From Pseudo-nitzschia pungens (Eukaryota > Bacillariophyta > Bacillariophyceae > Bacillariales > Bacillariaceae), in NCBI GenBank assembly GCA_037355855.1, contig CM074762.1, positions 2,046,001 through 2,110,000 of the forward strand: a stretch of DNA of 64,000 bases, written 5' to 3'. The translations under genes and the position numbers were made by a program. Positions 5,221-19,725 of the stretch are shown piece by piece. The notes under the pieces are model-generated. The model saw nothing but the letters and a program-made list of their open reading frames with translations, searched no databases and had not been told where the DNA came from. How positions within the stretch are numbered: position 1 is the stretch's first letter; the number at the start of each line of letters is the position of its first letter.

Positions 5221-5224
5221 AAAA
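5221..5224 (-). terminator. Probable Pol III terminator of the permuted tRNA gene
   Basis: On the minus strand, TTTT begins six bases after the anticodon loop of the 5' half ends. In a permuted tRNA gene the 5' half is transcribed last, so the terminator belongs here rather than after the acceptor 3' strand. A T4 run is the minimal Pol III signal. Confidence 0.6.
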
Positions 5225-5229
5225 GATTA

Positions 5230-5306
5230 TTCGTAGTCAGACGCCTTACCGTTGGGCCAAAGGGTCAGTCTAAACCCTCCCGGGAATCGAACCCGGAATC
5301 TTCTGA
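5230..5306 (-). tRNA. trnR-ACG: Circularly permuted tRNA-Arg (anticodon ACG)
   Basis: Reading the minus strand, bases 5306-5272 encode the 3' half: anticodon stem 3' strand TCAGA, variable AGATT, T stem and loop CCGGG-TTCGATT-CCCGG, acceptor 3' strand GAGGGTT, then T. A 5-base linker (AGACT) follows, then 5266-5230 encode the 5' half: acceptor GACCCTT, TG, D arm GCC-CAACGGTAA-GGC, G, anticodon stem TCTGA and loop CTACGAA. Joining the 5' half to the 3' half gives a 72-nt cloverleaf with all stems paired (G-U at both acceptor ends) and the ACG anticodon. The A box (TGGCCCAACGG) and B box (GGTTCGATTCC) are intact but in reversed order. The break falls at about 37/38, the canonical tRNA intron site. 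No ordinary-order partner halves occur nearby. The U at position 73 is unusual for Arg. Confidence 0.85.
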
Positions 5307-6257
5307 TTGCTGTTGATTGAAAACCGACTTTTGTCTTTATATAGTTGTATCAAACGAGGGAAAAATGGCTGAGTTCCCCCTTGAATCACCACGTAATTTA
5401 CCGGTAACGTATGTAAAAGAGATAGCTCTCTCTCGCCTAGCGAATACCTGTTTTACACCTGGTGGATTGGGCAGCGTGGTGAGGCTTGAATTTGGTAACT
5501 CCACGGAGGTCTACAAGTAATAGTACTAGTACTACTATTTCTAGTGCTTCCTCTGTTGCCTTCTCTAACATCTGCCAGCAGCTGCGATCGAGTAGTCTAT
5601 TAGTACTACTAGTACGCAACCTTACCAATAAATATCAATCACCTTATTATGTATGTTACGGTGCATGTTATTGTGCATATTACTGTGCATGTTACTGTGC
5701 ATGTTACGTGTGCACGCAATATTGCCCTACTGTCGAGCATATAGTTGGAAATATCATCTGTTTTCATTACCAGATTTGCGTACCTGATTCATCCCCATTT
5801 TGGTTTTACCCTATCTGCGTTCCCTTCGACTTCGTTTGTCGTACCTGCGTTCCTAGCTCCGTACGGTATATGTTTAACTTTCCATAATATTATTTCTTCG
5901 TCAGAGGTACGGTACCGGTAAGTGGTAAGTAACTTACGAAATACCGGTAGATCTTACCTACCTTACTGACGATATCATTCGTTTCCCCGTCGCTATGCAC
6001 CGTACCACTGGAAGATGATGTTTGGGTTCTTGGATCATACCGATAGGGCTGCATGCGGTAACTACGGTATGTAGTCATTATTAATCGCGACAGACGCAAT
6101 ACTATCCTGGGCTTGATCCCGTCGCGAGATAAGAGTTTCAATAGTTTTTAATATTTAACATTGAGAATTCCGGCATTGAAGTTTGATCCAATGAATTAGT
6201 TTGACCCAATGTAGAGCGTCTTGGTTGCCCGGTCTCACGACCAATGTTTGAGAACCG
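5307..6257. other. Intergenic, no gene seen
   Basis: Contains the leader side of the permuted tRNA unit, an ATGTTA(C/T)(T/G)GTGCAT-type degenerate repeat at about 5649-5710, and several TACCGGTA words around 5920-5950. No coding signal. Confidence 0.5.
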
Positions 6258-7279: not shown

Positions 7280-10200
7280 ATGATTCAAAAGCTCGCATTC
7301 GATCTTCCAAATAGTACACGCACGGTTTCCTCCAATTCGCCATCACACGATGATACGGCTAGCATAAGCACCTTTGGTGCGAGCGTCTGCCGTGACCGTT
7401 ACCCCGGAAACAGTGGTGGAAGACAAGGAAGAAACCGAAGAAGACACCGCTCTGGCAAACAGAGCATTGTTTCCCTCGCCGTCATCATTGTTACCTTTGG
7501 ACTCATCGCCGGAATCGTCTTCTCCATGATTTTCTGGCGCGCCGAAAACATTTCTCGCCGCAACGAATTCGAAAGCGGTGCTTCCATCACCGTGGCGAAA
7601 ATCAGTGATTCCTTCCACGAATACGCCGACGTTGCTTCTCTCATACACGGAAGGTGTCGCCACCGGCCCCGATTCAACGCATCCGCCTTCGAGAGCGACC
7701 CGGAAGGCTACACGGAAAGCTACAACGAATGGTCCGGGTCCTTTCGAAGAGATTTTCGCGAACTGTACGAATACATCAATGCCTCCGGTCTCAAGTTCAA
7801 GGCCATGCAATTCGATCCCAACATTACCAATCTCGAACGACCCCTCGCCGAAGCCGAAGCCCAGACCTTTTACACCGAGCACTACCCCTGGGTCAACTAC
7901 ACCGGCTTTCGTGGATTCAACGGTGATTCAAAAAAGCTGCTGCCGAGGTGGCGGAACCAATCCTTCTACTTTCCAATCCACTACATGGAACCCATCGAGG
8001 GCAACGAGGCAGCGATCGATCTCGATTACTACTCGAGCGAGACGCGGATACGAGCCGTGGAGGCCTTGTTTTCGACCCAACGCCCCTCTCTGACGGACCG
8101 GTTGTCTCTGGTCAAGCAAAAGGGTCAGGTGAGCCGATGCAGCACCGGAAACGATCTCCTATCGACGTACACCGGCCCGTCCTACGGCGTGGTTCTGATG
8201 CATCCGGGGGTTCGGTTGAGTCAAGACGATGAAACCAGCTGGCCGAGGGATTTCTCTTCCATTGTCCTGTGCATCTCCGACCTCATGAAACGAGCGGCCC
8301 TGCACCAGAACAAAAAGGTGTCCGTGTACATTCACGATTTGTCCGATCCGACCAAGAGCGAGCCGGAGTTTATGGGAGCGGCGAGAATCAACGGCAACGA
8401 TACCAATGGCCACGAGAACCAGGGCACTGCTCCCTCGTTCAAACTCATCGAGGAAGTCAAACTGCACGAGCTAGACTGCGACAACGATGTCTCGTGCTAT
8501 CGGAAAACCATTTCCATCGCCAACCGGGAATGGACGGTTACCGTGATGAACGAAGAAGGTCTCGATCGGGTCCAGTTGATCATTGTCGTTTTCATTGGTC
8601 TGCTCATCTTTCTGGCCTTTGTGGGTCTGGCGGTCTGGGTGGTGGCCAACGACCGTCGGAACCGGACCTATTCGGCCCTCAGGTCCAGGGCGGCGGCCGA
8701 ACGAAACGCCCTGGTGCTCGAAAACGCAAACAAGGCGGCCCAGACCGAACGCGAACTCAACGACTTCTTGGCACACGAGGTGCGGAATCCGCTGTCGGCC
8801 GCCATGGCCGCGACCCAGTTTTTGCGAACGGAATTGAATCGCAGAAACAGAAGCCACGGCGAGAGCGAAACCGAAACCAAAACCGAAAACAACAACAACA
8901 ATAATAAAAATCATGCGGATCACAATGATAGTATCCATGATGATCCGGAAGAGAATGTATTCGGGAGAAGGACCAGTAAACTGATGTCTTCCCTATCCGA
9001 GTTCATTGTCGACCCCGGTAGTGACGAAGACGATATTGATACGGTGGAAGCAGAACACGGTGGCTTTATGGAGTCGATAACGGAGCTTAGGGATTCTAGC
9101 ATCAAGTCTCTTTCCTCACCCAGGCTCCTTCAAGCCAGGGAGGATATCCAAGTCGTGGACCACGCACTGCACTTTATCAACGACCTCTTGCGCAACATGC
9201 TCGACATGAATCGAGCTGCAAGCAAGAAGCTCAAGGTGAAACTCGCTCAGGCCGATTTGTTGCAAGACATTCTGGAACCCATTGCGGGAATGCTCCATCG
9301 AGGAGGAGAAAACATTGGCGGGGGAAACGGCGAAAGCAAGGTCCAGATCATTGTTGACTGCCCGGAGAATATCACCGTGGAAACGGACATCTTGCGGCTC
9401 AAGCAAGTAATTCTGAACCTGAGCCGGAACAGTGTCAAATTTATCAACGAGGGATTCATCCGGCTTCGGGCAGAGGTCGTGGAACTCGGCGACAGTGGTG
9501 ACGACTGGAGTTTGTCGAGCCACGAGACGTATTCCAAAACCTTTGACATCGAAGCCAACCGCTATGGTTCGAGCACGGTGCGAATATATGTCGAGGATTC
9601 GGGATCGGGCATTCCAATCGAAAAACAAGAGAACTTGTTCAACAAGTACCAAGAATCTCTCGATCTTCTCAGCCAAGGAACGGTAAGAGAACGACGCGAT
9701 GCAACAGACATTGTTTGCACTTGATTTTGTATCTCATTCATTGTTTTCTTCTCTCCTCCCACTGATTTGTTTCACCTCGCTACAAAAGGGTATCGGGCTG
9801 CATCTATGCAAAACTCTGGTAGAGTTGATGGGGGGCGAAATTAGTTTGGACACTACTTACGACAGCGGGGTTCCAGGAAATCCTGGTGCCCGTTTCGTCA
9901 TCGATCTCAAGTCTAGTCCCGTAACATTGCCTTGTTCGACTAACTTTGGGTTTGATGTGGTCGGTCAGGGTGAGCGCAATGCGTTTGAGAACAGGGAAGG
10001 AACCGTCGGCAACGAAGAAAAAGAGGACGCGCCCTCCGCTTTGCAACTCGAGCTCCCCAAGTCTCTCAAGGTATTGTTCGTGGATGACGACCGAATCCTC
10101 AGAAAACTCTTCACACGAACCATCAAGACGGTCGCACCCGACTGGGTTATCCGAGAGGCGGCCAATGGCGAAACGGCAATCTTGCTGGCGAACGAAGAAC

Positions 10201-18530: not shown

Positions 18531-19725
18531 TGTGTTGACGCGCAAACGCTGCGAGATTGTAACGACCGTGAATCCAAATCAAAATCCGAATCCAAATCCA
18601 AATCCCAAGCAACACAGAATCTGGTTAGATTACGTAACTCGTTCATTGGCACTTACGATGATGCTTCAGATTTTCATGTCTCTGCGAGTAAGGTTACGTA
18701 CCGGTACCAGTACTTGTACGAGTATGCTTCTTAGATTTAGCGGTACGTATGTTCTGTACCGGTACGGTAGACAAGAGAGCAGTAAGTGAGTGAGTGAGTC
18801 CTTTTCTGTCTCTGACGCACTACAGTAAAATAAAATCTTCCGTTCGTACTTCGTACGATACCCGAGTCAATACACCAAATAGAAAATAATTTTTGGTGAC
18901 ATAGGACTTCTCGAAGATCATTGAAACTGTTTCTCGGATCGCCGCAACACCCTCGCACGGGTAAGCCTCCTATCTCTCTTCGCCTCTTGGCTTTGATCTT
19001 GTGTAGTAACTGTTCTAATAAATTTAACAATTTATTGGGGGCATTGCCCCTTCTTGTTAAACTATTCTTTGCACACTGCGGTGCTATGTTGCTTGCAACA
19101 CCACTGCGCGCATGGTCTTGGCATTTCACTCACCGCCTCGAACTGTGCACCCCCCCTCTCACTTTTTCCATCCCCCCCCAACACCAACCCAATCTACCCC
19201 AATGGTAGTCGGTTTCGGAAGTCTGCTTCCCCTGGACGCAGCTCCTGGCAGCAGCTGCTCCACCAACCCCCATCCGATCCGCTTCATTCATTTACCGGCT
19301 CGATAATGGATCTCAGGTTCTCAGGTTGACTATCTATCATCGATAACACAGGAGACCAACGACACGACACGATGAAAATCTATTCTGTGCCATATTCGAA
19401 ACGTCATCAGAAATTTTACAACCCTAATTGAATGTTATGGCTAAGGTCACTTCGTATTTCTTTTTATGTGGAACATCCAATAGCTCGAGAGCGATTGGAT
19501 AATTCTATGGTTGTATCTGTGTTTCGACGGACGACTGCATCGCATTCTTCGAGCATAATTCGTTCGCGACCGGTCCAAATCGTTTCGTCCTCGTTTTCTC
19601 GCGGTCCGTTCGAGTCCGAAAGCGATGCGGCGCTCCGCGTCGGTCTCTCGCCCGGAGGGGAACGAACGGCCGCACGCGCGCGCTGGTTCGCTTCCCCCGG
19701 TCGCTCCGCGTCGTCTCGCAACGGT
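18531..19725. other. Intergenic region
   Basis: Contains an imperfect (AAATCC)n run at 18572-18608 and TACCGGTA words at 18699-18770. The 3' end (19500-19725) is GC-rich trailer of the SDR gene. No gene seen. Confidence 0.5.

Follow-up and report, generated by a model that had tools for sequence, protein, structure and literature searches.

The question raised by this locus is whether a short minus-strand segment of the window (the whole 64-kb stretch of DNA analysed), which the initial annotation described as a circularly permuted tRNA-Arg(ACG) gene, is a working gene that encodes the two halves of its tRNA in swapped order or the remains of a rearrangement. Its elements are as follows:

5335..5343, minus strand: TATA box (TATATAAAG), predicted Pol III upstream element, starting 36 nt 5′ of A38
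5308..5320, minus strand: leader, whose CAG adjoining the junction is able to pair with C32-U33; only two pairs in the window copy
5272..5307, minus strand: 3′ half, A38 to U73 (ATCAGAAGATTCCGGGTTCGATTCCCGGGAGGGTTT), identical in seven of eight copies
5283..5293, minus strand: B box (GGTTCGATTCC), from a pattern match
5267..5271, minus strand: 5-nt linker AGACT, joining the acceptor 3′ strand to the acceptor 5′ strand; length 5 in all eight copies, sequence unconserved
5231..5266, minus strand: 5′ half, G1 to A37 (GACCCTTTGGCCCAACGGTAAGGCGTCTGACTACGA), identical in six of eight copies
5249..5259, minus strand: A box region (TGGCCCAACGG), read from the sequence and placed downstream of the B box, the reverse of the usual order
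5232..5234, minus strand: anticodon ACG (34–36), from the sequence and the ARAGORN call of Arg(acg) on the rejoined string
5225..5230, minus strand: trailer ATAATC, from the sequence
5221..5224, minus strand: TTTT, predicted Pol III terminator; a TTTT lies no more than 10 nt past the 5′ half in seven of eight copies

The leading 3′ half comprises the 3′ strand of the anticodon stem, the variable loop, the T arm, and the 3′ strand of the acceptor stem, and the 5′ half comprises the acceptor 5′ strand, the D arm, the 5′ strand of the anticodon stem, and its loop up to A37. This is the arrangement originally proposed (5306–5272 and 5266–5230), but two of its ends were off by one and lie at 5307 and 5231. 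When the two 36-nt blocks are rejoined, the resulting 72-nt tRNA is predicted to fold into a full cloverleaf with acceptor, D, anticodon, and T stems of 7, 3, 5, and 5 bp, an anticodon loop CUACGAA, and the discriminator U73, and ARAGORN identifies it as tRNA-Arg(acg), in agreement with the complete cloverleaf and ACG anticodon claimed for it; the Pol III signal reported after the 5′ half is also present, at 5224–5221. The acceptor stem contains two wobble pairs, G1-U72 and U7-G66. A G1-U72 pair and U73 are unusual for a eukaryotic tRNA-Arg; both the pair (5266 and 5273) and the discriminator (5272), which had already been remarked on, are invariant in the eight copies of the gene described below. 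In the unaltered window, ARAGORN detects no tRNA, nor does it detect one at the other seven permuted sites, and at its cut-off Rfam returns no tRNA in the window but only a U2 spliceosomal RNA gene (18970–19155, plus strand, 118 bits). Near the tRNA locus, a large open reading frame (7280–9721, plus strand) encodes a sensor histidine kinase, recognized by its CHASE and HATPase domains and, weakly, by HisKA.

To assess the possibility of a chance arrangement, a covariance model (R2) was trained on 12 tRNAs of the same genome, nuclear and organelle-type with no Arg(ACG) among them, whose halves had been exchanged and separated by 5-nt linkers. R2 gave a single match up to an E-value of 10 in the 64-kb window, at 5307–5231 (54 bits; E = 1.9e-13, a rough value because the calibration was short), and it matched all eight copies at 52.7–59.5 bits. 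The training alignment left out the Gly, Gln, Asp, and Glu tRNAs, whose shorter variable loop was misplaced by MAFFT, together with two Arg copies; the training set of a related model, R1, included two of the eight Arg copies, whereas that of R2 included none. Over 35 sources (186,265 bases), R1 gave 84 matches up to E = 10, of which 14 represent the eight Arg genes through overlapping loci, and the next match consists of two neighboring ordinary tRNAs (Ile and Ala). Half-swapped models thus respond to ordinary tRNAs arranged in tandem as well (up to 49.7 bits for R1), and the case for permutation therefore depends in addition on the absence of outer halves and on the comparison of the eight copies. 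The ordinary nuclear tRNA genes (L050–L058; e.g. L052:903–1159 and L058:992–1243) form head-to-tail clusters with short spacers, such as Ala-Met-Leu and Arg(TCG)-Asp-Thr, in which TTTT mostly follows the last gene only, a pattern that suggests polycistronic tRNA transcripts; such tandem pairs would offer an obvious origin for permuted genes.

A search of the 66.9-Mb assembly (28 contigs) with the rejoined tRNA returned 16 half-matches at eight places on six contigs (two each on C5 and C10, and one each on C6, C7, C9, and C12), the order always being 3′ half and then 5′ half. A pattern search conducted for each half with up to three mismatches recovered eight 5′ halves and eight 3′ halves at the same loci, all with 0 or 1 mismatch, and the reversed-pattern controls for each half gave no matches; at none of the eight loci does the 5′ half lie upstream of the 3′ half, which is the order of an ordinary or intron-containing gene. 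Five of the eight copies are identical across 72 positions, and a single change is present in each of the remainder: C49 to U in L009, where pairing with G65 is kept as G-U, and substitution of the D-loop base U20 by A or C in L014 and L016. Mean pairwise identity among the copies is 0.993 for the 3′ half and 0.987 for the 5′ half, as compared with 0.384 for the 12 leader bases nearest the junction, 0.399 for the six trailer bases that follow the 5′ half, 0.314 for the linkers, 0.26–0.27 for the far flanks, and 0.25 for random segments.

These values bear on the alternative of a dead tRNA pseudogene produced by rearrangement, with the tRNA itself supplied by an ordinary tRNA-Arg(ACG) gene. Seen alone, the window copy could be taken for a product of decay on account of its weak splicing motif and its odd U73 and G1-U72, but eight copies with halves about 99% identical amid near-random surroundings, with all pairing kept and no ordinary copy within three mismatches, make this explanation extremely improbable. 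The initial annotation had named a normal gene elsewhere and decay of this copy among the signs of a pseudogene; the genome instead contains eight conserved permuted copies and, at up to three mismatches, no intact tRNA-Arg(ACG) gene, although such a search would miss a gene with more than three mismatches in the anticodon arm or one located in an assembly gap. The search for the intact anticodon arm with the same limit gave one match, at C2:919686, which has three mismatches, is altered at A34, and is followed by no T arm; ARAGORN finds no tRNA in the surrounding 3 kb, and no decayed copies were found around the permuted family within three mismatches. Queries with human and plant tRNA-Arg(ACG) gave no candidates but also missed the permuted eight and are uninformative on intact copies; the survey of ordinary tRNAs covered the best 63 of 4671 Rfam tRNA candidates and is an incomplete set. 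A scan of contigs from viruses and from prokaryote genomes detected neither the permuted gene nor its 3′ half. The silicon transporter family PF03842 has 11 matches in the genome, on C3, C6, and C8, all above the cut-off (best 775 bits), and C6 carries both silicon transporter and permuted gene sequences; the host is therefore a diatom and the permuted genes are nuclear. With eight conserved copies in a genome that encodes silicon transporters, the proposal that a diatom carries a permuted tRNA-Arg(ACG) gene is supported.

In the window copy alone, the position of the junction is ambiguous, there being A's on both sides. In the alignment of the eight copies, A37 and A38 never change but the bases flanking them do, which points to a junction at 37/38, the split first proposed. 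A junction at 36/37, which would give strict two-base helix spacing in six copies, was ruled out on the basis that G36 is followed by A in all eight but A38 is preceded by a variable base (C, T, A, G, T, T, T, T). Six of the leaders have GUAG and three further bases before A38, and GUAG is complementary to C32-U33-A34-C35. Contiguous leader pairs counted from C32 number four in six copies, three in L016, and two in the window copy (L011), and four pairs are reached by 1.2% of random 12-mers from the window, but it should be noted that the copies are related and that these counts, like those of the folds, are not independent. A leader AG able to pair with C32-U33 is present in all eight. In six copies, three leader bases rather than two separate the helix from A38, making the bulge one base longer than in the strict motif. 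With the cloverleaf enforced, a 4-bp leader helix is predicted in six copies (L009, L010, and L012–L015), and an added outer helix completes the bulge-helix-bulge in L012 and L013; the leader of L016 is paired in another register, and L011 has no leader helix. Unconstrained folds are the same for L010, L012, L013, and L015 and similar for L009 and L016, but L011 and L014 prefer other structures. The window copy has the weakest junction motif of the eight.

The linker is 5 nt in length in all copies, despite indels in the adjoining leader, and ends in C or T in each of them; since a purine at this position could pair with U73, the pyrimidine may reflect selection for clean cutting. Seven of the eight linkers do not begin with CCA, the exception being L010 (CCAGC), which indicates that CCA is not encoded, as in eukaryotes. 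The constant spacing also bears on whether this is a split tRNA, in which halves from different loci are joined in trans and the cis order is incidental. Joining in trans could not be told from joining in cis by the mature sequence, as the halves are nearly identical everywhere, but at all eight loci each half lies 5 nt from its partner with no terminator between them, and in cis the acceptor stem folds with the 5-nt linker as its loop; a trans mechanism has, in our estimation, next to no likelihood.

Rfam searches raise a different alternative, that the linear transcripts are tRNA-mimic noncoding RNAs resembling the bacterial YrlA Y RNA, with an end stem replacing the anticodon stem. RF02553 (YrlA) is the best match at all eight copies, with scores of 20.7–31.3 bits, and YrlA, as described in PMC8394870, has a tRNA-like module closed by pairing of both ends. 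The diatom genes have in common with YrlA a tRNA-like module closed by the two ends of the RNA, but YrlA is bacterial and is not a tRNA gene. All eight scores are far below the 69-bit Rfam gathering cut-off, and the anticodon loop, which would be useless in such an RNA, is invariant in every copy, whereas the leader and trailer that would form the end stem vary. A six-frame search of the genome gave no match for TROVE/Ro60 (with 1 of 14 controls detected), and tRNA-Arg(ACG) would then need another source. A YrlA-like function is therefore considered very unlikely, and the best reading of the family, based on the comparisons of its sequences, is that its members are working type II circularly permuted tRNA genes.

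Seven of the eight copies have a TATA element starting 36–44 nt upstream of A38; L016 has none near −40 and has one at −83. By the same test, such an element is present in only 2 of 34 intact nuclear tRNA genes and, of the 20 genes that lead a cluster, in 2 (or in 4 when any TATA is accepted), and it occurs at 0.4% of background positions. Fisher's test of the permuted copies gives 1e-5 against 2/34, 2e-4 against 2/20, and 2e-3 against 4/20, but the intact set consists of the best Rfam matches and the neighborhoods of permuted genes and is not random, and the permuted copies are related. A TATA box is associated with permutation in the host genome. In L014, the first TTTT is 28 nt past the 5′ half, in contrast to the 10 nt or less in the other seven. 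Inverted A and B boxes are thought to be unsuitable for TFIIIC, and in Cyanidioschyzon merolae TATA-like elements are found at both permuted and ordinary tRNA genes (PMC3978253).

The gene is, with high probability, a half-swapped tRNA-Arg(ACG) gene, one of eight copies with a 37/38 junction that likely supply the only cytosolic tRNA for CGU and CGC. Decoding of these codons would require an ACG (inosine) tRNA. This need has been stated for bacteria (PMC10454642). In the examined stretches, ARAGORN identified arginine tRNAs of two kinds, Arg(TCG) and Arg(TCT), the latter organelle-type, and the permuted copies are likely to be the only source of tRNA-Arg(ACG). In two silicon transporter open reading frames, CGT or CGC represents 17 of 20 and 20 of 22 arginine codons; the share is lower elsewhere, being 10 of 30 in a third transporter open reading frame and 133 of 436 in nine open reading frames of the window, which are not all proven genes and in which CGA is also common.

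By analogy with red and green algae, maturation is likely to proceed through a circular RNA, and the pathway suggested here follows the circular-intermediate model of algal permuted tRNAs (PMC3978253). TATA-driven Pol III would produce a single transcript containing leader, 3′ half, 5-nt linker, 5′ half, and trailer and ending at TTTT, in which the anticodon stem and a short leader helix would form an h-bulge-helix splicing motif. Cleavage by the tRNA splicing endonuclease on the 3′ side of A37 and the 5′ side of A38 would leave two ends for a tRNA ligase to join, generating a circular pre-tRNA with an acceptor stem closed by the linker; excision of the linker by RNase P and tRNase Z would be followed by addition of CCA, and A34 would presumably be deaminated to inosine. 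With respect to the machinery, a splicing endonuclease catalytic domain (PF01974, 57 bits) is encoded on C2, and every PDB entry that it matches is named as a tRNA-splicing or tRNA endonuclease, including two Sen2 entries at E = 0.06; this domain is the sole match, and other subunits of the splicing endonuclease were not found in the genome search. There was no match in the genome for the ligase RtcB, with 9 of 14 controls detected, and none for the Trl1-type families PF09511 and PF08302, for which no control was detected either.

A more inclusive interpretation, favored with moderate confidence, is that the whole tRNA-Arg(ACG) family is permuted, has shifted as a class to TATA promoters, and has spread as permuted units. 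Each cytosolic CGU or CGC codon would then be read by a tRNA that had once been circular; the B-before-A order would disable the internal promoter, so that the class, but not most ordinary genes, would have moved to an upstream TATA; and the dispersal of permuted units could possibly have involved reverse transcription of the precursor RNA.

Permuted tRNA genes have been described in a single red alga, in some green algae, in a nucleomorph, and in an archaeon (PMC3978253; PMC12636532). The type II genes of Ostreococcus, Micromonas, and C. merolae likewise have the 3′ half first, a 37/38 junction, an upstream TATA-like or AT-rich stretch, and a downstream T run, and they have an hBH-type motif, to which the leader pairing of most diatom copies may correspond (PMC3978253). 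In contrast, Arg(ACG) is absent among the 34 genes of Table 1 of that paper, and the host here is a diatom; the sole repeat in the same table is C. merolae Gly(CCC), with two copies, as compared with eight copies of one isoacceptor here, and a further difference is the uniform linker length of 5 nt in the diatom copies. Such a linker had been regarded as extreme, a view that does not hold, since linkers are 5 nt in the Bigelowiella natans nucleomorph genes and 1 nt in Thermofilum pendens Tyr (PMC3978253). The B. natans permuted tRNA-Ser also has a 37/38 junction in common with the diatom genes but differs in being tRNA-Ser, in comprising two genes, and in residing in a nucleomorph of green-algal origin (same source). 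In the green alga Auxenochlorella, nuclear permuted tRNA genes are similarly absent from the tRNAscan-SE set (PMC12636532).

A search of the titles and opening lines of abstracts in the literature, mostly outside subscription journals, found no permuted tRNA gene in a diatom, and none is reported in the available parts of PMC4090602, PMC8450103, PMC12636532, and PMC13353863. The kind of gene is known; what appears to be new, within the reach of that search, is its occurrence in a diatom, the number of copies, and the seemingly complete displacement of the ordinary gene. The diatom case would add another major eukaryotic lineage to those with permuted tRNA genes and, if no ordinary copy exists, would represent an essential multicopy tRNA dependent on RNA circularization. 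Standard tRNA annotation would call tRNA-Arg(ACG) missing. With eight copies that differ naturally in leader, linker, and trailer but encode nearly the same tRNA, the genome provides an experiment of its own, from which rules of splicing, linker removal, and promoter choice could be read.

Several other features of the genome were observed. The silicon transporter open reading frame at C3:7803825–7808126 encodes 1696 aa with several transporter domains in series. The top tRNA matches recur in organelle-type sequence at C7:4.80–5.22 Mb, C5:5.86–5.98 Mb, and C2:7.11–7.16 Mb, stretches that we infer to be organelle DNA inserted or misassembled into nuclear contigs. A tRNA-Phe(GAA) gene of 86 nt (L063:6218–6303, minus strand) has an apparent short intron in the anticodon loop, and ordinary tRNA introns therefore seem to be present in this genome.
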